The notes under the pieces are model-generated. The model had not been told where the DNA came from and did not search any database. It saw only the letters and a list, made by a program, of their open reading frames with translations. Position numbers and translations under genes: made by a program. Below, piece after piece: positions 51,934-63,347 of a stretch of 64,000 nucleotides of DNA. The stretch comes from Streptomyces liliiviolaceus (GTDB taxonomy: Bacteria; Actinomycetota; Actinomycetes; Streptomycetales; Streptomycetaceae), in assembly GCF_018070025.1 (NCBI RefSeq), contig NZ_JAGPYQ010000001.1:5084001-5148000 (forward strand), written 5' to 3'. The first letter of the stretch is position 1. Each line of letters opens with the position of its first letter.

Positions 51934-52812
51934 TCACGTCTGCTGGGGCACGATCGCCACCGGACAGTCCGCGTGGTGCAGCAGTGCGTGTCCCACCCGG
52001 CCGAGTTGCAGGCCGAAGTGGCCGTGCCTGCGCCGGGCGCCGACGACGACCAGGTCCGCCGCCGACGAACGCTGCAGGAGCACCTTGCGGGCCGGTCCCT
52101 CGACGGTGGTCTTCCGCACCCGCACATCCGGGTGATCGGCGAGACCATCGTGGACGACCGCGTCGAGCACCGCCGAGGCCCGTTCCTCGTGGTAGCGCTC
52201 CGGTGCGCCGGCCATGCTCGGGTGGTCGGCGCCCTCGTAGGAGGGGCAGCGCCAGGCGCGTACGACATCCAGCGTGCAGCCGCGTGCCCGCGCCTCACGG
52301 AACGCGAACCGGGCCGCCTCACCGCTCAGCGCCGGGTCGCCCGCGCCGAGCAGGACGCGTTCGTGCGTCGCCTCCAGGGCGGTCTTGTCACCGCGGACCA
52401 CGATCACCGGACAGTGGGCACGCGCCGCCACCGCCAGACCGACCGAGCCCAGCAGCAGTCCCCTCAGCTCGCCGCGACCGCGCGAGCCCGTGACGAGGGC
52501 CGAGGCGTCGCGGGCCGACTGCAGCAGGGCGGTCGCCGCGTCCTCCGGCACGATCTCCGCGAAGACCCGCACGGAGGAATCCCGCTGCCGGGCGCGCTCG
52601 GCGGCGGATCCGACGATCTTCTCGGCGAGCGCCCGGTCCGACGGGCGTCCGGCCCCATCGGTCTGATCGTCGCCTTCGTAGCGTTCCCACAGGCAGGCGT
52701 GCACCAGGCGGACGGGCAGGCCGAGGCGGGCCGCCTCGTCCACCGCCCAGTCCATCGCCTGAAGGCTGGACTCCGATCCGTCCACGCCCACTACCAGGGG
52801 CAGCTCCATCAT
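51934..52812 (-). CDS. Universal stress protein, tandem UspA domains
   Basis: 292 residues from the ATG at 52812 (GGAAGG upstream; GTG at 52821 is possible). Two UspA domains: the first PLVVGVDGSESSLQAMDWAV with ATP-loop GSRGRGELRGLLLGSVGLAV, the second ERVLLGAGDPALSGEAARFA with GARRRHGHFGLQLGRVGHAL and CPVAIVP. The G-x2-G-x9-G-S/T motif for ATP binding is clear in the first. A GGGCCGTACGGCCC palindrome lies about 110 bases upstream, so it is probably part of the DevR/OsdR-type regulon here. Confidence 0.92.
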   Translation of the reverse strand: MMELPLVVGVDGSESSLQAMDWAVDEAARLGLPVRLVHACLWERYEGDDQTDGAGRPSDRALAEKIVGSAAERARQRDSSVRVFAEIVPEDAATALLQSARDASALVTGSRGRGELRGLLLGSVGLAVAARAHCPVIVVRGDKTALEATHERVLLGAGDPALSGEAARFAFREARARGCTLDVVRAWRCPSYEGADHPSMAGAPERYHEERASAVLDAVVHDGLADHPDVRVRKTTVEGPARKVLLQRSSAADLVVVGARRRHGHFGLQLGRVGHALLHHADCPVAIVPQQT

Positions 52813-52917
52813 CGCCACCACCTTCCATCTGATTCGGGACGTTCCACCGCGGTCAGGGCATCTTCATTCAACGCCTGTGCCGGGCTGCGCACTTGAGCCG
52901 GTCGGTGCGCTTCCCCT

Positions 52918-52931
52918 GGGCCGTACGGCCC
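52918..52931. promoter_or_regulatory. DosR-like palindrome GGGCCGTACGGCCC upstream of USP
   Basis: Perfect 14-base palindrome between the USP start and the sensor kinase end. It has the GGGxC-N4-GxCCC geometry of the mycobacterial DosR box and matches two copies before ppdK/devR. Confidence 0.55.
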
Positions 52932-52966
52932 TGCCGGACGGGCCCGCCGGAAACCGCCGCGCGGTG

Positions 52967-54751
52967 CTACCGCTCACCCACCGGTGCCCACCACACCAGA
53001 GTGGTGCCGCCACCGTCGGGGCTGCCCAGCCGCAGTTCTCCGCCCAACTGCTCGGCCCGTTCCGCCATGTTGCTCAGACCGCTCCGGCGACCCCCGGACG
53101 GAATGCCCACGCCGTCGTCGGACACCGTCAGGCGCACCTCACGGCCATCGGTCTCCAGAACCACCGCGGCACACGTGGCCCTTGCATGACGGGCGATGTT
53201 GGTCAGCGCCTCGGAGAGCACGGCCACCACGTGGTCGGCCGTCTCCTTGGCGACCTGGGTGTCCACCAGTCCCTCCATCTGGAGGCTGGGCGTGAAGCCG
53301 AGCACCGGAGCCGCCTCGCCGACCACACGCACCACGCGGGCCCGCAGGCCCGGGGCAGCGGCGCCCTCACGCGCCCGCAGGCCGAAGATCGTCGACCTGA
53401 TGATCTTGATGGTCTCGTCCAGGTCGTCCACCGCCCGCGACACACGTTCCGAGGCCTCGTCGTGCTCGATGAAGCGGCTGGCGCTCTGCAGGGTCATGCC
53501 GGTGGCGAACAGCCGCTGGATCGCCAGGTCGTGGAGGTCGCGGGCGATCCGGTCACGGTCCTTGAGCACCGCGATCTCCTCGGCGTCCTCACGGCGTTCC
53601 GCCAGCTCCATCGCGACCGCGGCCTGCGCGGCGAACCCCTGCAGCGCGTGGGTCTCCTTCTCGGTGAACGCCGGCCCGCCGGACTCGCGCACCAGCAGGA
53701 CGATCCCGCGCACCCGCTCGCCCGTTCCGATGGGGACGGCCACGGCCGGACCCAGTCCGGTGAACCGCGCGGGCCCGGACGCGCCGTGTTCCTCCGCGGA
53801 GATGTCGGGACTGGCGACCGAGGCGGCCGCGGAGAACGCGCGGCCGATCAGGCCCTCGTCGACCGGCAGCACAAGGCCTCGATGCGCCTCCGCCGCCTCG
53901 CCGAAGGCCAGTTCGGCGGTCAGCGAGTCGGTGTTCTCCATGGGCAGGGCGACCACCGCCAGCGCCGCCGAGGTGATGTCCCTGGCCCGCTCCGCGATCA
54001 GGCCGAGGACCTCGGCGCGGTCGTTGCCGGACATCAGACAGTGGGTGATCTCCGCACTCGCCTGCAGCCAGCGTTCGCGCAGCCTCGACTCCTCGTAGAG
54101 GCGGGCGTTGTCGATCGCCACGCCGGCGGCCACCGCCAGCGTCGACAGGACCGACTCGTCCTCCTCGTCGAACTGTGCGCCGCCCCGCTTCTCGGTCAGG
54201 TAGAGATTGCCGAAGACCTGCTCCCGCACCCGGATCGGGACACCGACGAAGGTGTCCATCGGCGGGTGATGCGGCGGAAAGCCGTACGAGGCGGGGTGCC
54301 CGGACAGTTTCATCAGCCGCAGGGGCTCGGGATGCCGGATGAGTTCGCCCAGGATGCCGTGCCCCTCCGGGAAGTGGCCGATCTCGGCGATCTGTTCGTC
54401 GCTGATCCCGATGGTGTGGAAGGCCGACAGCCGCTTGCCGTCGGCCCCGATCACCCCGAGGGCCGCGTAGCGCGCGTCCACGAGCACGGCCGCGGCCTCC
54501 ACGATGCTGCGCAGCGCCTGCTCCAGATCCAGCTCCCGGCCGACGGAGAGCACCGCCTCCAGCAGACTGTGCACCCGGTCGCGCGTACCGCGGGCGGCGT
54601 CCAGTCTGGCCTGCAGTTCTTCCAGCAGCTCGTCCAGCTTCAGCTGCGGCAGCCGTACGCGGGCCTGACGGGACTCCTCGGCGCTTCCCACCGGTCGATC
54701 CTCCAGGTCCCCTCGGCGCACGGACGGCCGGCCGTTCCGGTCGGGTGACAC
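52967..54751 (-). CDS. GAF-domain sensor histidine kinase, DevS/DosS (OsdK)-like
   Basis: 594 residues. A short helical lead, GAF-A (about 75-225) and GAF-B (about 240-385), then HisKA_3 with phosphoacceptor His407 (DRDRIARDLHDLAIQRLFAT) and an HATPase with DDGVGIPSGG and GLSNMAERAEQLGG. In GAF-A the block GFPPHHPPMDTFVGVPIRV matches the part of DevS/DosS that contains the haem-ligand His, from memory, so it may sense oxygen or NO. The GTG at 54751 starts it, 73 bases after GAPDH. Its partner is the response regulator at 56073. Confidence 0.9.
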   Translation of the reverse strand: MSPDRNGRPSVRRGDLEDRPVGSAEESRQARVRLPQLKLDELLEELQARLDAARGTRDRVHSLLEAVLSVGRELDLEQALRSIVEAAAVLVDARYAALGVIGADGKRLSAFHTIGISDEQIAEIGHFPEGHGILGELIRHPEPLRLMKLSGHPASYGFPPHHPPMDTFVGVPIRVREQVFGNLYLTEKRGGAQFDEEDESVLSTLAVAAGVAIDNARLYEESRLRERWLQASAEITHCLMSGNDRAEVLGLIAERARDITSAALAVVALPMENTDSLTAELAFGEAAEAHRGLVLPVDEGLIGRAFSAAASVASPDISAEEHGASGPARFTGLGPAVAVPIGTGERVRGIVLLVRESGGPAFTEKETHALQGFAAQAAVAMELAERREDAEEIAVLKDRDRIARDLHDLAIQRLFATGMTLQSASRFIEHDEASERVSRAVDDLDETIKIIRSTIFGLRAREGAAAPGLRARVVRVVGEAAPVLGFTPSLQMEGLVDTQVAKETADHVVAVLSEALTNIARHARATCAAVVLETDGREVRLTVSDDGVGIPSGGRRSGLSNMAERAEQLGGELRLGSPDGGGTTLVWWAPVGER

Positions 54752-54824
54752 GGTATCGGTCCGGTGCGGTCGTGCGCGGTCCGGGGCGGGAGAGCGTAGG
54801 TATCCGGCCCTGTTGCCGGGCCCG

Positions 54825-55853
54825 TCAGTCCTTCGGCAGCCGGGCCGAGACGTACTCGGTGAGGTCGAGCAGCCGGTTGCTGTAGCCCCATTCGTTGTCG
54901 TACCAGCCGAAGACCTTGACCAGTTCGCCGTGGGCCTGGGTCAGCGGGGCGTCCAGGACGCACGAGGCGGGGTCGCCGACGACGTCGCGGGAGACGATCG
55001 GGGCGTCGGAGACCCGCAGGACGCCCCGCAGCGGGCCGTCCGCGGCCTCCCGGAACGCCGCGTTGATCTCGTCCGCCGACGCGGGCCGCTCCAGGACCAC
55101 GCTCAGGTCGGTCAGCGAACCGTCCTCGACGGGGACGCGTACGGCGATACCGTCGAGCGTGCCCTCCAGTTCGGGCATGACGAGGCCCACGGCGCGGGCG
55201 GCCCCGGTGCTGGTGGGGATGATGTTCACGGCGGCGCTGCGGCCCCGGCGCAGGTCCTTGTGCGGGCCGTCCAGGACGACCTGGTCGTTGGTATAGCCGT
55301 GGATGGTGGTCATCAGCCCCTTGACGACGCCGAAGTGGTCGTTCAGCACCTTCACCATGGGAGCCACGCAGTTGGTGGTGCACGAGGCGTTGGAGACGAC
55401 GTGGTCCCGCCCGGCGTCGTACGTGTTCTCGTTGACGCCCATCACGATCGTGCCGTCGACTCCCTTGCCCGGTACGGACAGCAGCACCTTGCGTGCCCCC
55501 GCCTTCAGATGGAGGCCCGCGTCCTCCCGGGTGCGGAAGCGGCCGGTCGACTCGATGACGACGTCCACGCGGAGTTCGCCCCAGGCCAGCGCGGCGGGGT
55601 CCCGCTCGGCGGTCACGGCGATGCGGTGCCCGTCCACGGTGAGCGAGGTCTCGTCGTGCTCGATGGCGCGGTGCAGCCGTCCGTACGTCGAGTCGAACTC
55701 CAGCAGGTGCGCCAGAACCGCCGGCGAGGTGATGTCGTTGACCGCGACGACCTCCACCGCTGTGCCCGCGCCGGTCTCCGCGCGCTCAAGCACGCAGCGC
55801 AGATAGTTGCGTCCGATGCGGCCGAAGCCGTTGATGCCCACCCGCACGCCCAT
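54825..55853 (-). CDS. gap: Glyceraldehyde-3-phosphate dehydrogenase
   Basis: 342 residues: VRVGINGFGRIGRNYLRC (NAD fold), catalytic Cys158 in HVVSNASCTTNCVAPMVKVL, and GYSNRLLDLTEYV at the end. It is an extra GAPDH placed between the sensor kinase and the response regulator genes, all leftward, which suggests induction under low oxygen along with PPDK and AdhE. A GGGACGTTCGGCCC box lies 96 bases upstream of its start. Ribosome site GAAGGAC. Confidence 0.93.
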   Translation of the reverse strand: MGVRVGINGFGRIGRNYLRCVLERAETGAGTAVEVVAVNDITSPAVLAHLLEFDSTYGRLHRAIEHDETSLTVDGHRIAVTAERDPAALAWGELRVDVVIESTGRFRTREDAGLHLKAGARKVLLSVPGKGVDGTIVMGVNENTYDAGRDHVVSNASCTTNCVAPMVKVLNDHFGVVKGLMTTIHGYTNDQVVLDGPHKDLRRGRSAAVNIIPTSTGAARAVGLVMPELEGTLDGIAVRVPVEDGSLTDLSVVLERPASADEINAAFREAADGPLRGVLRVSDAPIVSRDVVGDPASCVLDAPLTQAHGELVKVFGWYDNEWGYSNRLLDLTEYVSARLPKD

Positions 55854-55948
55854 GTCCTTCGTCCTTCCGGTCCGTCCCGTGTCTGTCCGCGGTGCCAGCG
55901 TGCGGGCGGCCGACCGGGCGGGGCTTGGGCCGTACGGGGGTGAGCCGG

Positions 55949-55962
55949 GGGACGTTCGGCCC
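55949..55962. promoter_or_regulatory. DosR-like box GGGACGTTCGGCCC upstream of gap
   Basis: Matches GGGxC-N4-GxCCC with the left half identical to the mycobacterial GGGAC. It lies 96 bases before the GAPDH start, in the gap between gap and the regulator gene. Confidence 0.45.
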
Positions 55963-56039
55963 TGCGGCCGGCCGCGCCGCTCGGCACCCGTGCACGGACT
56001 CGGGGATGTCCGGGCACGGACTCGGGCTCACGGGCTCTC

Positions 56040-56078
56040 GGGCTTCAGACTTCAGGCTTCAGGACTCAGGACTCAGCG
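56040..56078. repeat. Degenerate CTTCAGG/ACTCAGG repeat at end of response regulator gene
   Basis: GGCTTCAGACTTCAGGCTTC and AGGACTCAGGACTCAG make about six 7-base units. The array runs into the stop codon of the regulator gene (56073-56075). Confidence 0.7.
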
Positions 56079-56777
56079 TCCTTCGTTCTTGGGCCTGCCC
56101 TGGGTCTGGGCCTGCGCCTGGGTGGCGATGACGGCGGCCTGGATACGCCGTTCCACGCCCAGCTTGGCGAGCAGCCGTGAGATGTGGTTCTTCACTGTCT
56201 TCTCCGCGAGGAAGAGCCGTTGGCCGATCTGACGGTTGGTCAGCCCCTCGCCGATCAGGGCCAGGATCTCCCGCTCCCGCTCGGTCAGGCCGGGCAGCGC
56301 GTCCGGCTCTTCCTTCGGCTGGTCGCCCGCGCGCAGCCGGGCCATCAGCCTGGCGGTGGCGCTCGGATCGAGCAGGGACTGGCCCGCGGCCACCGTGCGG
56401 ACGGCCGACACCAGGTCCGCTCCCTTGATCTGCTTCAGGACGTACCCGGAGGCCCCGGCCATGATCGAGTCGAGCAGTGCCTCCTCGTCGTCGAAGGAGG
56501 TCAGCATCAGACAGGCCAGATCCGGCATACGGGAGCGCAGTTCCCGGCACACGGTCACCCCGTCCCCGTCGGGCAGCCGGACGTCGAGGACCGCCACCTG
56601 GGGCCGCAGTGCGGGAACGCGCACCAGGGCCTGTTCGACGGTCCCGGCCTCACCGACCACGGTGATGTCCGGCTCGTCGTTCAGCAGGTCGTGCACCCCG
56701 CGCCGCACCACCTCGTGGTCGTCCAGCAGGAAGACCCGGATGGGGCTGTCGGGGCCCGCCCGTTCGCTGTCGGCCAT
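56073..56777 (-). CDS. NarL-type response regulator, DevR/DosR (OsdR)-like
   Basis: 234 residues. Receiver domain with phospho-Asp65 ([13 protein letters not shown]), acidic pair DD at 19-20, conserved Lys in [11 protein letters not shown], and a LuxR HTH ([40 protein letters not shown]). The linker and HTH resemble mycobacterial DevR and S. coelicolor OsdR. It is the natural partner of the GAF kinase two genes away. Divergent from ppdK with two GGGCCG-N2-CGGCCC palindromes in between, suggesting it controls itself and ppdK. A Gln/Ala tail (TQAQAQTQ) is repeat-encoded. Confidence 0.9.
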
Positions 56778-56877
56778 CGGATGCTCCCTCTCGTGCGCCG
56801 GACGCCGATGTCCGCACCCGCGCGCGTACCGGCTTCTTCTGCTGCTGGATCCTTCCGGTTTCCGCGGCGGACGACCA

Positions 56878-56891
56878 GGGCCGGTCGGCCC
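56878..56891. promoter_or_regulatory. DosR-like palindrome GGGCCGGTCGGCCC
   Basis: First of two boxes between divergent devR-like and ppdK genes; 100 bases from the regulator start. Confidence 0.55.
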
Positions 56892-56930
56892 CGATTCCCC
56901 AGGCGAACCGATTCTCCACGACGGTCACAC

Positions 56931-56944
56931 GGGCCGACCGGCCC
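56931..56944. promoter_or_regulatory. DosR-like palindrome GGGCCGACCGGCCC
   Basis: Second box, centre 53 bases (about five helical turns) from the first and about 100 bases before ppdK. Paired DosR boxes at such spacing occur in mycobacterial promoters. Confidence 0.55.
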
Positions 56945-57045
56945 ACCTGAAGGGACGTACAGCACCTCCTCCGCCGCCGGCGGCGGTCCGACGCTGGGAA
57001 AGGCGCACCCACAGGGCCGCGGTACCGAGCCGAGGAGCACATGTC

Positions 57046-59742
57046 ATGGTCCGTCACGTGTACGACTTCACCGAGGGCGGCCGTGACATGGCCGACCTGC
57101 TCGGTGGCAAGGGAGCGAATCTGGCCGAGATGACCGGTCTCGGCCTTCCGGTGCCGCCGGGGTTCGTCGTCACCACCGAGGCCTGCCGGGCCTTCCTGGC
57201 CACCGGCGCGGAACCCGACGGCATGTCACGGGAGATCTCCCGGCACCTGTCGGCCCTGGAGGCCGCCACCGGGCGGCGCCTCGGGCAGCCGGACGATCCG
57301 CTGCTGCTGTCCGTCCGCTCCGGGGCCCGGTTCTCGATGCCGGGCATGATGGAGACGGTCCTCGACATCGGGTTGACCGACGCCTCCGTACAGGGCCTGG
57401 CCAAGGTCTCCGGGAGCGAGCGGTTCGCCTGGGACTCGTACCGCAGGCTGGTGCAGATGTTCGGCAGTACGGTCATGGGTGTCGACGCCGGGCTGTTCGA
57501 GCGGGCCATGTCGCTGCTCAAGGAGAAGCGCGGTGCCCCGGACGATCTGCGGCTGGACGCGGGCGACCTCGCCGAACTCGTGGAGACGTACAAGCACTTG
57601 ATCCATGTCGTGACGGGTGACCACTTCCCGCAGTCGCCCGCCGAGCAGCTGCGCCGGGCGGTGCTCGCGGTCTTCCGTTCGTGGAACACCGAACGCGCCC
57701 GTCTGTACCGGCGGCGCGAGCGCATCCCCGACGACCTGGGCACCGCGGTCTGCGTACAGCGCATGGTGTTCGGCAATCTCGGTCCCGACTCCGGCAGCGG
57801 TGTCGCCTTCACCCGTGATCCGGCGACCGGACGCGGCGGCCCGTACGGCGACTACCTGGCCGACGCCCAGGGCGAGGACGTCGTCGCCGGCATCCGCGAC
57901 ACCGTGCCCCTGGCCGAGCTGGAGCGGCTCGACGCGGCCTCGTACCAGCAGCTGCGCGAGCATCTGCGAACGCTGGAGCACCACTACCGGGACCTGTGCG
58001 ACATCGAGTTCACCATCGAGCGCGGCACGCTGTGGATGCTGCAGACCCGGGTGGGCAAGAGGACCGCCGAGGCCGCCTTCCGCATCGCCGCCGAGCTGGT
58101 CGACGAAGGGCTCGTCACCCCGGCCGAGGCACTGTCGCGTGTCGGCGGGGACGGGCTCGCCCGGCTGATGTTCCCACGCTTCGACACCACCGCGGCCGGG
58201 GATCCGCTGGCCCGCGGCCTGCCCGCCTCGCCGGGTGCGGCGGTGGGCGCCGCGGTCTTCGACTCCGCCGAGGCCGTACGGCGTGCCGCCGCCGGGGAGC
58301 ACGTGGTCCTGGTCCGCCAGGAGACGACCCCCGACGATCTGCCCGGCATGGTCGCCGCCCGGGCCGTGCTCACCGGCCGCGGCGGCAGGACGAGTCACGC
58401 GGCGGTCGTCGCCCGCGGCATGGGCAAGGTGTGCGTCTGCGGTGCCGAGGAACTGACCGTGGACGCGGAGGCACGGCGCTTCACCACACGGGCCGGCACC
58501 GTCGTCGAGGAGGGGACGGTCGTCTCGGTGGACGGCTCCACGGGAGCCGTGTACCCGGGCGCGGTCCCCCTGGTCGACTCCGCGGTCATGCGGTACCTGG
58601 AGACGGGCGAACGCGGTGAGCGGTCGGCCCAGGTCGTCGACGCGGTCGCACGGGCCCTGCAACAGGCGGACGGGACAAGGCGGTTGGAGGTACGGGCCAA
58701 TGCCGACACTCCACAGGACGCCGCCCGGGCCCGCCGGTTCGGCGCCCAGGGTGTCGGCCTGTGCCGCACCGAGCACATGTTCCTCGGCGAGCGCCGCAAG
58801 CTGGTCGAGCAGATGATCCTGGCCGGCGGCGGCGCCGCACGCGAACGCGCCCTGGCCGCGCTGCTCCCCCTGCAGCGGCGGGACTTCGCCGGCATCCTCG
58901 AAGCGATGGACGGCCTGCCCGTCACCATCCGCCTCCTCGACCCGCCGCTGCACGAGTTCCTGCCCGACCGCACCGAACTCGCCGTACGCATCGCCACCGC
59001 CGAGGCACACGGCGACCTGCCCGATCCGCACGACACCGAACTGCTCGACGCCGTGAACCGCATGCACGAGGAGAACCCGATGCTCGGCCTGCGCGGGGTT
59101 CGCCTGGGTCTGGTGGTGCCGGGCCTGGTCGCCATGCAGGTACGGGCCGTCGCCGAGGCGGTCGTCGAGCGCGTGCGGGCCGGAGGCTCGCCGAAAGCGG
59201 AGATCATGGTGCCGCTGGTGGGCGCCGTCGAGGAGTTGCGCATCGAGCGCGAAGAGGTGGAACGCGTACTGGCCGAGGTCTCGGCCGAGTCCGGCGTCCC
59301 GGTGAACTGCCCGGTCGGCACCATGATCGAGCTGCCCCGGGCCGCTCTCACTGCGGGCCGGATCGCCGAGCAGGCGGAGTTCTTCTCCTTCGGCACGAAC
59401 GACCTCACCCAGACCACCTGGGGGTTCTCCCGCGACGACGTCGAGGCGGCGTTCTTCTCCGCCTATCTCGACAAGGGCGTCTTCGCCGCTTCCCCGTTCG
59501 AGACGATCGACCGCGAGGGCGTGGGGCGGCTGGTCCGGATCGCCGTCGCCGAGGGCCGGGCGGCCAGGCCCGACCTGACGATCGGCGTCTGCGGTGAGCA
59601 CGGTGGCGATCCCGAGTCCGTCCGCTTCTTCCACGCGGCGGGGCTGGACTACGTCTCCTGCTCGCCGTTCCGGGTCCCGGTGGCCCGTCTGGAGGCCGGG
59701 CGGGCCGCACTGGCGGAGACCGAGGTGAGCGACAGCCGGTGA
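57046..59742 (+). CDS. ppdK: Pyruvate, phosphate dikinase
   Basis: 898 residues from the ATG at 57046 (GAGGAG 9 bases upstream). N-terminal ATP-grasp (GGKGANLAEMTGLGLPVPPG, RSGARFSMPGMMETVLDIGL), phosphohistidine domain with His451 in GGRTSHAAVVARGMGKVCV, and the C-terminal TIM barrel (GLCRTEHMF, MVPLVGAVEEL, FFSFGTNDLTQTTWGFSRDD, Cys in GVCGEHGGD). It interconverts pyruvate + ATP + Pi and PEP + AMP + PPi. In the dormancy-type locus it could save energy by using PPi or feed gluconeogenesis. Two DosR-like palindromes lie upstream. Confidence 0.95.
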   Translation: MVRHVYDFTEGGRDMADLLGGKGANLAEMTGLGLPVPPGFVVTTEACRAFLATGAEPDGMSREISRHLSALEAATGRRLGQPDDPLLLSVRSGARFSMPGMMETVLDIGLTDASVQGLAKVSGSERFAWDSYRRLVQMFGSTVMGVDAGLFERAMSLLKEKRGAPDDLRLDAGDLAELVETYKHLIHVVTGDHFPQSPAEQLRRAVLAVFRSWNTERARLYRRRERIPDDLGTAVCVQRMVFGNLGPDSGSGVAFTRDPATGRGGPYGDYLADAQGEDVVAGIRDTVPLAELERLDAASYQQLREHLRTLEHHYRDLCDIEFTIERGTLWMLQTRVGKRTAEAAFRIAAELVDEGLVTPAEALSRVGGDGLARLMFPRFDTTAAGDPLARGLPASPGAAVGAAVFDSAEAVRRAAAGEHVVLVRQETTPDDLPGMVAARAVLTGRGGRTSHAAVVARGMGKVCVCGAEELTVDAEARRFTTRAGTVVEEGTVVSVDGSTGAVYPGAVPLVDSAVMRYLETGERGERSAQVVDAVARALQQADGTRRLEVRANADTPQDAARARRFGAQGVGLCRTEHMFLGERRKLVEQMILAGGGAARERALAALLPLQRRDFAGILEAMDGLPVTIRLLDPPLHEFLPDRTELAVRIATAEAHGDLPDPHDTELLDAVNRMHEENPMLGLRGVRLGLVVPGLVAMQVRAVAEAVVERVRAGGSPKAEIMVPLVGAVEELRIEREEVERVLAEVSAESGVPVNCPVGTMIELPRAALTAGRIAEQAEFFSFGTNDLTQTTWGFSRDDVEAAFFSAYLDKGVFAASPFETIDREGVGRLVRIAVAEGRAARPDLTIGVCGEHGGDPESVRFFHAAGLDYVSCSPFRVPVARLEAGRAALAETEVSDSR

Positions 59743-59984
59743 CGGGCCCGTACCGCCCGGCCCCGTACCGCCCGGCCCCGGCATCGGCCGTCCCGGTCCC
59801 CCGCGGGCCGGTCCGGTCGGCCCGCTCCCCCGGGGCCGACCGGGCCCCGCCGGGGACCATCGGCACAAGCGACGGGGTACGCCCCGGACGAGAGTGGAGA
59901 CGTGAGCGGCACCGGCCCCCGCGGTGCCGCTCCACCCGGACCCGCCGGCCCCCGCGGCGGCACACGACACCGGAGGTGCACGCC
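59743..59984 (+). promoter_or_regulatory. Upstream region of adhE with partial DosR-like boxes
   Basis: 242 noncoding bases. GGGACCATCGGCAC at 59853-59866 fits GGGxC-N4-GxCCC with one mismatch, and GGGCCGACCGGGCC at 59833-59846 fits with one mismatch. A repeated CCGTACCGCCCGGCC sits at 59748-59778. The ribosome site GGAGGT lies before the ATG at 59985. Confidence 0.4.
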
Positions 59985-62810
59985 ATGACCCGACACGGCG
60001 CCGGAACCACGGCAACCGCCGCGACCACGGCGACCACGGCGACCACGGCGACCACGGCCGAGGGAAGCATGGCCGAAGGGGCCATGGCCGAGGGAGCCGC
60101 CGAGGCACCGTCCGACATCGCCGTCGCCGTGGACCGGCTCGTGACAGCGGGTCTCAAGGCCCTCGCCGACTACGAGGCCCTGACCCAGGAACAGGTCGAC
60201 CACATCGTCAAGAAGGCGTCCGTCGCGGCCCTGGACCAGCACACCGCGCTGGCCCGGCTCGCCGTCGAGGAGACGGGCCGCGGGATCTTCGAGGACAAGG
60301 CCGCCAAGAACATGTTCGCGTGCGAGCACGTGACGCACAGCATGGGCCCCATGAAGACCGTCGGCGTCATCGCCCGCGACGACATCGAGGACATGGTCGA
60401 GATCGCGGAACCGGTGGGTGTGGTCTGCGCGATCACCCCCGTCACCAACCCGACCTCGACCACGATCTTCAAGGCGCTGATGGCGCTGAAGACCCGCAAT
60501 CCGATCGTGTTCGCCTTCCATCCCTCGGCGCAGCGCTGCAGCGCCCGGACGGCCCAGGTCGTACGGGACGCCGCCATCGCCGCCGGGGCTCCGGAGCACT
60601 GCGTCCAGTGGATAGAGACCCCGTCGGTCCGGGCGACCGGCACGCTCATGCGTCACCCGGGTGTCTCCCTGATCCTCGCGACCGGCGGCAACGCCATGGT
60701 GAAGGCGGCCTATTCGGCGGGCAAGCCGGCGCTGGGCGTGGGCGCGGGCAACGTTCCCGCGTACGTGCACAGGAGCGCCGCGCTGCGCCGGGCCGTCAAC
60801 GACCTGGTGCTGTCGAAGTCGTTCGACAACGGAATGATCTGCGCCTCCGAGCAGGCCGCCATCCTGGACGCCGAGATCTACGACGAGGCCCTGGCCGAGT
60901 TCCGAAGGCTGCACGCGCACCGGGCGACCGCCGAGGAGAAGGCGAAACTGGAGGCCTTCCTCTTCCCCACCGGCACCGTCCCCGAGGACCGGGCGGCGGA
61001 GGGAGATCCTGAGCCCAAGGTCAACTCCTCGGCGGTCGGGCAGAGCGCGGCGTGGATCGCCGAGCGGGCCGGATTCACCGTGCCCGCCGACACCTCGCTC
61101 CTCCTCGTCGAGGCCGAACGGGTCGGCCCCCAGGAGCCGTTGACCCGTGAGAAGCTCTGCCCCGTCCTGGCCGTACTGCGGGCCGGATCGCAGCAGCAGG
61201 GCTTCGATCTGGCCGCCGACATGGTCGCCTTCCACGGCCAGGGCCACAGCGCCGTCATCCACACCGGGGACTCCGCGCTCGCCGAGGCGTACGGGCGGCG
61301 GATGAAGACCGTGCGGATCATCGTCAACGCCCCCTCCTCGCAAGGGGCGATCGGCGGCATCTACAACCACCTGCTGCCGTCGCTGACCCTGGGCTGCGGC
61401 TCCTGGGGCAACACCTCCGTGTCCAACAACGTCTCCGCCGCACAGCTGCTGAACATCAAGAGGGTCGGCACCCGCCGCAACAACATGCAGTGGTTCAAGG
61501 TCCCGCCGAAGATCTACTTCGAGCCGCAGTCCATCCGGTACCTGGCCTCCATGGCGGACATCCACCGCGTCACGGTCGTCACCGACGCGACCATGACCCG
61601 CCTCGGTTTCGTCGACCGCGTGACGCGGGTCCTGCAGCGCCGGCACGATCCGGTCACGCTCCAGATCATCGACAACGTCGAGCCGGAGCCGAGCATCGAC
61701 TCCGTCCGGCACGGCGCCCGTCTGATGGACGACTTCCGCCCCGACACGATCATCGCGCTGGGCGGCGGCTCGCCCATGGACGCCGCCAAGGTGATGTGGC
61801 TGCTGTACGAGCAGCACGCCCGGGGCAAGGACATCGACTTCACCGACATGCGGCAGAAATTCTCCGACATCCGCAAGCGCGCCTTCCGCTTCCCCGTGCT
61901 CGGCGCACGCGCCCGCCTGGTGTGCGTGCCCACCACCTCCGGCACCGGAGCCGAGGTCACCCCCTTCGCCGTCATCTCCGACCCGGCCACCGGCAAGAAG
62001 TACCCCTTGGCGGACTACGCGTTGACCCCGAGCGTGGCCATCGTCGATCCGTCGCTCACCAAGGAGCTGCCGCCGGCGCTGGCCGCCGACAGCGGCTTCG
62101 ACGCACTGACCCACGCCATCGAGTCGTACGTGTCCGTGTACGCGAACGACTTCACGGACGGCCTGGCCCTCCATGCGATCCGGCTGGTCTTCGACAACAT
62201 CGAGGCGGCGGTCGGCGACCGCACGGACCGGCCCGGCGCGCGGGAGAAGATGCACAACGCCGGCACCATCGCCGGGATGGCCTTCGGCAACGCGTTCCTC
62301 GGCATCGTCCACGCCATGTCCCACACCCTCGGCGCCACCTTCCACGTCGCGCACGGCCGCACCAACGCGATCCTGCTGCCGCACGTCATCCGCTACAACG
62401 GCACCGTTCCCGCCAAACTCACGGGCTGGCCCAAGTACGAGCACTACCGTGCCCCCGAACGCTTCCAGGACATCGCCCGCACCCTCGGCCTTCCGTCGGC
62501 CACCCCGCAGGAGGGGGTGGAGTCGCTGGCCCGAGCCGTGGAACGGCTGCGTGACGCCGTGGGCATCGAGCCGTCGTTCCGTGCCGTCGGCGTCGACGAG
62601 CGCGCGTTCCTCGACGCGCTGCCGCAACAGGCCCTCAACGCCTACGAGGACCAGTGCGCGCCCGCCAACCCGCGGATGCCGATGCTCGACGACATGCGGG
62701 AGATCATGCGCGCGGCCTACTACGGCCGAGCGGACGCCCCCGACATCGACGAGGACGTGGCCGTACAGGGGCGGCCGGACACGGACGAGGGCCGAACGGC
62801 CCTGGCGTGA
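59985..62810 (+). CDS. adhE: Bifunctional acetaldehyde-CoA/alcohol dehydrogenase
   Basis: 941 residues from the ATG at 59985 (CGGAGGT). After a ~40-residue low-complexity N-terminus (TTATAATTATTATTATTA, MAEGAMAEG) comes the CoA-acylating aldehyde dehydrogenase with Cys286 in SFDNGMICASEQ, then the Fe-type alcohol dehydrogenase (ALGGGSPMDAAKVMWLLYEQ, metal-type H in DALTHAIESYVSVYA and AMSHTLGATFHVAHG). It reduces acetyl-CoA to ethanol with NADH, a fermentative redox outlet that fits a hypoxia locus. A true start at the later MAEG codons (60069 or 60084) is possible, removing the repeat. Confidence 0.93.
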   Translation: MTRHGAGTTATAATTATTATTATTAEGSMAEGAMAEGAAEAPSDIAVAVDRLVTAGLKALADYEALTQEQVDHIVKKASVAALDQHTALARLAVEETGRGIFEDKAAKNMFACEHVTHSMGPMKTVGVIARDDIEDMVEIAEPVGVVCAITPVTNPTSTTIFKALMALKTRNPIVFAFHPSAQRCSARTAQVVRDAAIAAGAPEHCVQWIETPSVRATGTLMRHPGVSLILATGGNAMVKAAYSAGKPALGVGAGNVPAYVHRSAALRRAVNDLVLSKSFDNGMICASEQAAILDAEIYDEALAEFRRLHAHRATAEEKAKLEAFLFPTGTVPEDRAAEGDPEPKVNSSAVGQSAAWIAERAGFTVPADTSLLLVEAERVGPQEPLTREKLCPVLAVLRAGSQQQGFDLAADMVAFHGQGHSAVIHTGDSALAEAYGRRMKTVRIIVNAPSSQGAIGGIYNHLLPSLTLGCGSWGNTSVSNNVSAAQLLNIKRVGTRRNNMQWFKVPPKIYFEPQSIRYLASMADIHRVTVVTDATMTRLGFVDRVTRVLQRRHDPVTLQIIDNVEPEPSIDSVRHGARLMDDFRPDTIIALGGGSPMDAAKVMWLLYEQHARGKDIDFTDMRQKFSDIRKRAFRFPVLGARARLVCVPTTSGTGAEVTPFAVISDPATGKKYPLADYALTPSVAIVDPSLTKELPPALAADSGFDALTHAIESYVSVYANDFTDGLALHAIRLVFDNIEAAVGDRTDRPGAREKMHNAGTIAGMAFGNAFLGIVHAMSHTLGATFHVAHGRTNAILLPHVIRYNGTVPAKLTGWPKYEHYRAPERFQDIARTLGLPSATPQEGVESLARAVERLRDAVGIEPSFRAVGVDERAFLDALPQQALNAYEDQCAPANPRMPMLDDMREIMRAAYYGRADAPDIDEDVAVQGRPDTDEGRTALA
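60023..60058 (+). repeat. 9-base tandem repeat GACCACGGC x4 in adhE N-terminus
   Basis: Copies at 60023, 60032, 60041 and 60050 encode the Thr-Thr-Ala run. It is in frame and unrelated to conserved AdhE sequence. Confidence 0.85.
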
Positions 62811-62882: not shown

Positions 62883-63347
62883 ATGGCCTTCGACAATGCC
62901 GAGCCGGTCGACTCCGGGCCCCGCCAGAGCATCGAGCTCGACGGCGAGGAGGCTCTGCGACTGCTGGGCACCGTGTCCCTGGGAAGGATCGTCTTCACCC
63001 GGGACGCGCTGCCCACCATCCGCCCGGTCAACCATGTGCTGGACGGCGGGGACATCGTCATCCGCACCCACGAGGGGGCGGCCCTGACCTCACGCACCCG
63101 GCACACCGGCGGCCCGGGAGTGGTCGTCGCCTACGAGGCCGACGCCATCGACCCCGACACGCATCTCGGCTGGAGCGTCGTGGTCACCGGCTACGCGCAC
63201 CTGGTGACCGAGTCGCACGAACTCGCCCGCTACCGGGAGCTGTTGCGGCCCTGGGTGGACCGGACGATGGACTACGCGGTCCGCATCCACCCCGACCTGA
63301 TCACCGGCATCCGCCTCACCGCCCTGCGCAGCGGGGCAAGCCGGTGA
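62883..63347 (+). CDS. Pyridoxamine 5'-phosphate oxidase-family (flavin-split-barrel) protein
   Basis: 154 residues from the ATG at 62883; a GTG at 62853 would add 10. Split-barrel pattern ALRLLGTVSLGRIVFTRDAL, PTIRPVNHVLDGGDIVIRTH and GWSVVVTGYAHLV. In mycobacteria and Streptomyces such short PNPOx-like proteins (including Rv2003c/Rv3131-type dos-regulon neighbours in a loose sense) bind F420 or FMN; which it uses is unknown. It lies between adhE and a second USP and is likely part of the same stress locus. Confidence 0.85.
   Translation: MAFDNAEPVDSGPRQSIELDGEEALRLLGTVSLGRIVFTRDALPTIRPVNHVLDGGDIVIRTHEGAALTSRTRHTGGPGVVVAYEADAIDPDTHLGWSVVVTGYAHLVTESHELARYRELLRPWVDRTMDYAVRIHPDLITGIRLTALRSGASR

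Follow-up and report, generated by a model that had tools for sequence, protein, structure and literature searches.

The palindrome GGGCCG-N2-CGGCCC recurs in a 64-kb window of the Streptomyces liliiviolaceus genome (contig NZ_JAGPYQ010000001.1, positions 5,084,001 to 5,148,000; positions below are counted from the first letter of this whole stretch). The palindromes are very probably operators of the OsdR (DevR/DosR-type) response regulator encoded among them, and the predicted targets include fermentation genes, among them the pyruvate formate-lyase gene pfl just outside the window. An earlier note on this DNA had proposed that a DevR-like regulator binds the palindromes, and this agrees with the gel shifts published for the orthologue OsdR of Streptomyces coelicolor (PMC5069765) and with the conservation of the palindrome in relatives' promoters. 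The operator as such has been described before, in S. coelicolor. Relative to the literature searched, the apparently new elements are a rule of box pairs, the anchoring of the box at -43, an operator inside adhE, and the extension of the regulon to gap, adhE and pfl on the basis of sites; no paper on OsdR control of adhE or pfl via binding sites was found among the matches listed in the open-licence PMC literature.

Boxes, regulator and conservation

Four exact copies were found in the window, at 52918, 56878, 56931 and 62789. The first (52918..52931, minus strand) lies at -119 of a gene for a universal stress protein (USP; 51934..52812, minus strand) with two Usp stretches, the second (56878..56891, minus strand) at -114 from the ATG of the regulator gene osdR, and the third (56931..56944, plus strand), the distal box of its promoter, at -115 of the pyruvate phosphate dikinase (PPDK) gene ppdK (57046..59742, plus strand). 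The published equivalents in S. coelicolor are at -100 of SCO0200, -81 of SCO0204, and -102 and -158 of SCO0208, respectively (PMC5069765). The fourth copy (62789..62802, plus strand; GGGCCGAACGGCCC) falls in the last codons of adhE and lies at -94 of the ATG (62883) of a gene for a pyridoxamine 5'-phosphate oxidase-like (PNPOx-like) protein. A copy with one mismatch (55949..55962, minus strand) is located at -109 of gap, the gene for glyceraldehyde-3-phosphate dehydrogenase (GAPDH; 54825..55853, minus strand), and its 14 bases are repeated identically at -128 (L017) and -108 (L023) of relatives' gap. Three plus-strand boxes precede adhE (59985..62810, plus strand), two with one mismatch (59810..59823 and, 23 bp on, 59833..59846) and a weak one after a further 20 bp (59853..59866; 9/12 positions). 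The strong boxes start 94-126 nt ahead of the start codon of the nearest gene, and the adhE boxes 132-175 nt ahead. The USP, gap, ppdK and PNPOx-like genes were identified by library domain matches, and the bifunctional aldehyde/alcohol dehydrogenase AdhE by Pfam and by structures 6ahc/6tqh (E about 1e-241).

The coordinates that the earlier note had given for three perfect copies (52918-52931, 56878-56891 and 56931-56944) proved exact, and its relaxed copy before gap (55949-55962) is the one-mismatch copy. Its two one-mismatch copies before adhE were borne out in part, since 59833 has one mismatch while 59853 has three to the strict form, and the copy at 59810 had been missed. The note had also taken all copies to be noncoding; it had overlooked the fourth perfect copy at 62789, and because this one lies within adhE codons, the perfect copies are not all noncoding.

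The regulator gene (56073..56777, minus strand) encodes an OsdR/DevR-like protein with the Pfam domains Response_reg and GerE, i.e., a receiver and a LuxR/GerE helix-turn-helix of the NarL subfamily. Its closest solved relative was Mycobacterium tuberculosis DevR (3c3w; E 7e-82, 277 bits), followed by VraR at 146 bits. When aligned to 3c3w, with positions counted by hand, the equivalents of Asp54, the phospho-acceptor of DevR, and of its DNA-contacting recognition-helix residues Lys179, Lys182 and Asn183 were kept. The system differs from the M. tuberculosis DevR regulon in that the predicted targets in the window are fermentation enzymes. The boxes differ as well, the half-site in mycobacteria being of the GGGACTT type and thus lower in GC than that of Streptomyces. 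The neighboring OsdK/DevS/DosT-like sensor kinase (52967..54751, minus strand; 5' end uncertain) has two GAF domains, HisKA_3 and HATPase in Pfam, and is of the two-GAF DevS type. Its first GAF domain, a putative haem-binding GAF-A, matched 2vzw (E 1.5e-49), which is listed as a probable histidine kinase and which we take to be DosT, and DevS 2w3d (E 1.6e-45).

The comparison with S. coelicolor supports these assignments. There, the OsdR box consensus was published as AGGGCCGATCGGCCCT together with gel shifts (Urem et al. 2016, PMC5069765), which were obtained for osdR, uspA and the SCO0207-SCO0208 (usp-ppdK) intergenic region and were stronger when OsdR was phosphorylated; the uspA, osdR and SCO0207 promoters needed osdR for activity (PMC5069765). 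The box type and the types of regulator (OsdR, SCO0204) and kinase (OsdK, SCO0203) are the same as in the window, boxes of the AGGGCCGATCGGCCCT type are present upstream of osdR, usp and ppdK here as in the S. coelicolor regulon table, and the PNPOx gene SCO0214 is also a listed target (PMC5069765). The gene order of the window (USP - kinase - gap - regulator - ppdK - adhE - PNPOx) resembles the OsdKR region, with the difference that ppdK is divergent from osdR here and from a USP gene in S. coelicolor. A second difference is that gap, adhE and pfl are not in Table 1 of that paper, and the terms "SCO0206," "SCO7511," "glyceraldehyde" and "formate" are absent from its main text (PMC5069765). 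Eight local OsdR sites are said there to control 20 of the 22 genes in SCO0198-SCO0219 (PMC5069765), and these 20 may include SCO0206, unnamed.

A comparison of homologous promoters, which the earlier note had suggested, gave strong conservation upstream of the regulators. Named genomes were scanned and 79 of 80 regulator loci were used, with L030 dropped as too short. The exact palindrome was present within 300 bp upstream of the regulator at 27 of the 39 loci where the regulator was at least 80% identical and at 22 of the 40 loci below 80%, compared to means of 0.05 and 0.04 in shuffled sequences; stretches drawn at random from these loci gave 0.96 and 1.05. When exact palindromes made of two 6-base halves separated by 0-12 bases were ranked, GGGCCG-N2-CGGCCC came first upstream of the regulators (49/79). 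For the other targets, relatives were dropped if below identity limits of 45-60% or if their starts were poorly aligned (USP, gap, ppdK and PNPOx), while for PFL and adhE 30 loci each of the 57 and 40 positive genomes were taken, mostly the closest matches, and the own loci (L138 and L168) were excluded to leave 29 each. A box with at most one mismatch was found upstream of PNPOx in 13/18, USP in 10/21, gap in 3/6 and ppdK in 3/7 (shuffle means of 0.54, 0.62, 0.2 and 0.14, respectively), upstream of PFL in 20/29 within 260 nt and upstream of adhE in 10/29 within 300 nt (shuffle means of 0.85 and 1.03). Widening the search to 450 nt, which reaches into neighboring genes, gave 22/29 for PFL and 13/29 for adhE. 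These conservation statistics, and those of co-occurrence given further on, ignore relatedness, and promoters of related species are not independent.

Promoter anatomy and box pairs

The anatomy of the osdR promoter was deduced from 69 of the 79 osdR loci, as only promoters with a box matching at least 11/12 positions were counted. Counting from the box, the aligned columns were dominated by T at +14 (61 of 69), G at +15 (45), G at +16 (56) and T or C at +17 (62), and further on by A at +38 (41), A at +41 (33) and T at +42 (41). These columns were assigned to a -35 element, TGGTCG (56872..56877, minus strand), which abuts the box, and a -10 element, AAGGAT (56849..56854, minus strand), separated by a 17-bp spacer. 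This -35/-10 pair is clear from the alignment and would put the box center near -43 of the transcription start predicted near 56842. A "second palindrome" at +14 (at least 9/12 in 19/69 osdR promoters) was considered as an extra box and rejected because it is at least partly the -35 element.

The fixed distance from the box to the -35 and -10 elements among osdR orthologues also bears on whether the palindromes could instead be intrinsic terminators or RNA hairpins at gene ends. They are GC-rich inverted repeats and two of them lie near gene 3' ends (osdK and adhE), as such structures would. Against this, two copies occupy the region from which osdR and ppdK diverge, and no annotated gene ends there; no T-run follows the palindromes, and the boxes keep the distances to start codons given above. 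Hairpins or terminators are therefore considered very improbable, and the assignment to OsdR operators is preferred.

Promoters other than osdR showed a different layout. In 34 of 66 such promoters, all with a first box of at least 11/12, a companion box (at least 9/12) was found 20-24 bp nearer the gene. Shuffled flanks gave 2.3 on average and never more than 7 in 200 repeats, and the other downstream offset bins held 0 to 7. On the far side, a companion was present in 17/66 promoters versus 2.2 in shuffles. (The alignment of osdR with other promoters pooled 68 non-osdR promoters, the own pfl and adhE loci being kept.) In the window, weak 9/12 companions were located 23 bp nearer the USP gene (52895..52908, minus strand), 22 bp nearer gap (55927..55940, minus strand) and, as the proximal box of ppdK, 21 bp downstream of the distal box (56952..56965, plus strand). 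The companion offsets at the locus were thus +23 (usp), +22 (gap), +21 (ppdK), +23 and +20 (adhE), and, in the adjoining DNA, +22 for both pfl and ppk2; far-side companions were observed for PNPOx (-21) and a CoA-ligase gene (-22). In S. coelicolor, Table 1 contains one site pair 20 bp apart (SCO0517, -248 and -268), the spacing of which is not discussed in the text of the paper (PMC5069765). The pairing resembles promoter layouts of M. tuberculosis DevR, for which close-packed boxes, a proximal box overlapping the -35 element and cooperative loading of an adjacent weaker site are described (PMC3029386).

The perfect box in the last codons of adhE was examined separately. In 4 of the 29 adhE relatives (L169, L172, L177 and L185), a box with at most one mismatch was present 22 nt before the end of the adhE stop codon. 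Five of the 29 have PNPOx as the following co-directional gene, and all four box carriers are among these; the fifth, L176, has a two-mismatch copy at that position. Of the other 24 relatives, two (L175 and L180) carry a box at a different place within the final 150 bases of the coding sequence. Because the box carriers coincide with PNPOx as the next gene, the box at 62789 most likely serves the PNPOx-like gene (62883..63347, plus strand; 62853 is the start favored by the gene caller), and adhE would have absorbed the operator of its neighbor into its 3' end. At its other end, the predicted AdhE begins with a low-complexity Thr-Ala repeat (59985-60110), and the alignment with most relatives does not begin until about residue 30-49, so that translation may really start downstream of 59985.

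The following mechanism is proposed. Falling oxygen or rising nitric oxide would lead the GAF-domain kinase OsdK to phosphorylate OsdR, and dimers of phosphorylated OsdR would bind GGGCCG-N2-CGGCCC. At osdR, a single perfect box abuts the -35 element with its center near -43, so that bound OsdR could contact RNA polymerase, giving autoactivation. At many other targets, the strong distal box would load a second dimer onto the weak proximal box, which lies closer to the gene by two helical turns, and the loaded proximal box would take the equivalent place adjacent to the -35 element. The targets would be the USPs, gap, ppdK, adhE, the PNPOx-like gene and, outside the window, pfl and its activase, such that hypoxia would switch on an ethanol/formate-type fermentation set.

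Fermentation genes at the locus and in the genus

Directly to the right of the window (C1:5148001-5168000, L116), genes were found for pyruvate formate-lyase (PFL) and a radical-SAM activase of 246 amino acids with an open frame, along with CBS-BON proteins, a Crp-like regulator, PPK2, a CoA-ligase/GNAT protein and USPs. The pfl gene, the CoA-ligase gene and one USP gene have OsdR-type boxes ending 108-112 nt upstream. Exact boxes beyond the window are one common to the CoA-ligase/acetyltransferase gene and the divergent PPK2 gene and one before another USP gene. The PFL aligned nearly full length to Escherichia coli PFL (1h16, E 0) with an adjacent Cys-Cys pair and an RVSGYA motif kept, presumably the catalytic pair and the glycyl-radical motif, respectively. 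By its sequence, the protein is classed as an authentic pyruvate formate-lyase.

The distribution of these genes was determined in 150 Streptomyces genomes including the own, with an OsdR-like regulator accepted at E up to 1e-75. Matches were obtained for PFL in 57, the activase in 57, AdhE in 40 and the regulator in 138 genomes. Each of the PFL and activase sets contains one genome that the other lacks, and all 40 genomes with AdhE have a PFL match. PFL was present in 57 of the 138 genomes with the regulator and in none of the 12 without (p = 0.004), and AdhE in 40/138 versus 0/12. The association was also observed for genomes with a regulator at least 80% identical, which had PFL in 30/45 versus 27/105 of the others (p = 3e-6) and AdhE in 25/45 versus 15/105 (p = 5e-7). 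Some genomes were counted on partial matches only (PFL in G013, G034, G042 and G106; adhE in G057). In genome G141 the pfl activase was matched but no PFL passed the limit used, and in G013 the PFL match stops at residue 656 and no activase match was found; decay of the module is possible in both.

In expression data from Streptomyces lividans, gap3 (SCO7511), ppdK (SCO0208), a putative pfl (SCO0206) and several USPs rise with OsdR (PMC6302529). That evidence is a correlation in expression, whereas the evidence from the window consists of binding-site sequences. A further difference is that the pfl-activating gene of S. lividans is an N-terminal fragment and putative pseudogene (PMC6302529), whereas here the activase frame is open and a bifunctional adhE is present.

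Streptomyces do not grow without oxygen, yet they survive anoxia and carry many anaerobic enzymes, which has been termed the "anaerobic paradox" (PMC5069765). A broader proposal, on which we are evenly divided, is that about a quarter of Streptomyces (40/150 genomes with PFL and AdhE) carry an OsdR-switched fermentation module of oxygen-labile glycyl-radical PFL, activase and AdhE, joined here by GAPDH and PPDK; that its promoters, with box pairs two helical turns apart, would fire only when phosphorylated OsdR suffices for cooperative loading; that one operator was absorbed into the adhE coding end for the next gene; and that the module would provide the energy source that the paradox lacks. 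Conserved operators tying OsdR to the oxygen-sensitive PFL and to AdhE make the paradox directly testable, and box-marked fermentation genes could help explain how supposedly strict aerobes survive airless periods.

Distribution in the genome and competing explanations

The exact motif was expected 0.14 times (first-order Markov) to 0.27 times (base composition) in 64 kb and observed four times, consistent with the estimate in the earlier note of less than one strict copy by chance. Copies with at most one mismatch numbered 11 in the window against a shuffle mean of 4.2, and none of 100 shuffles reached 11. In the whole genome, 33 exact places were found in 11.13 Mb, of which six lie within 28.4 kb around the locus, spanning the right end of the window and the DNA beyond. 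This cluster has a Poisson probability of 5e-10, for a span picked with the result in view; uniform placement repeated 20,000 times never put more than five exact places into a 30-kb stretch. Coding and noncoding calls were made with a single codon-usage gene caller, with a noncoding background of 13.5% measured on 120 kb. Fourteen of the 33 places are noncoding (binomial 4e-5), comprising five of the six in the cluster, which begin 114-126 nt before a start codon, and 9 of the 27 elsewhere (0.007 without the cluster). As a candidate marker of noncoding sites, an A or T in the central dinucleotide was present at 11/14 noncoding and 9/19 coding sites (p = 0.09).

Several results weigh against the assignment to OsdR operators or against parts of the mechanism. 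The exact motif is not enriched genome-wide, as the 33 places compare to 41 for a reversed control pattern, and 19 of the 33 are coding; the genome scan of coding versus intergenic hits that the earlier note had envisaged thus upheld a noncoding bias and gave no global excess. Eighteen of these 19 coding copies, those outside the cluster, are probably chance occurrences. The adhE boxes are patchy, with 19 of the 29 relatives lacking a box of at most one mismatch within 300 nt. Two of 10 local promoters, osdR and a third USP gene (usp3), have no companion at 20-24 bp on either side. With an osdR-derived matrix, the expected -10 offset was not among the best six at paired promoters, and with a looser -10 pattern another offset (z 3.1) came ahead of it, leaving it in second place (z 2.5 and 2.7). 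The idea that all target promoters share a -10 element was rejected as poorly supported, given the competing offsets, and because of this poor evidence we infer, rather than observe, the -35 anchor of the proximal box at paired promoters. Finally, a search for the formate/nitrite channel PF01226 was negative for this genome, although a PFL is present, and positive for 3 of 14 control genomes.

The low genome-wide count, at or under that of the control, would suit the view that the copies are a functionless compositional by-product of 71% GC DNA. Compared to shuffles or uniform draws, the local clustering, the exact palindrome in 49/79 regulator promoters and the companion spacing all oppose it, and this explanation is given next to no credence. 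The bare palindrome is a poor predictor of sites genome-wide. The box-pair rule (20-24 bp) and the -43 anchor may give more specific site finding. Scanning the own genome for a strict tandem pattern gave no match, the companion boxes being degenerate.

It is also conceivable that the main binder of the boxes is an OsdR-like paralogue rather than the regulator at 56073-56777. A paralogue split across the ends of contig C2 shares 78% of 170 aligned residues with the window regulator, its recognition helix retains the same residues (EKTVKN), and its own gene is preceded by a one-mismatch box at -79; this protein could bind the boxes too. Conversely, the densest group of exact boxes surrounds the window regulator and includes its own promoter with the conserved layout, and a second paralogue at C1:1480876 has no box with three or fewer mismatches in the 300 bp upstream. 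Main binding by a paralogue is thus judged unlikely, and the window regulator is retained as the probable binder.

Contig C2 (2.5 Mb) starts and finishes inside the one OsdR-like gene, in frame (C2:1-546 and C2:2513140-2513292; L131 and L130), as would be expected if the contig is circular or was cut arbitrarily. Beside this gene are a second DevS-like kinase, a phosphoketolase and a Crp-like gene. Elsewhere on C2, two perfect boxes lie 2.4 kb apart (C2:1545477 and C2:1547837; L127), one before a VKOR-containing gene pair and the other between a DUF4142 gene and a gene for a COX1-type terminal oxidase.

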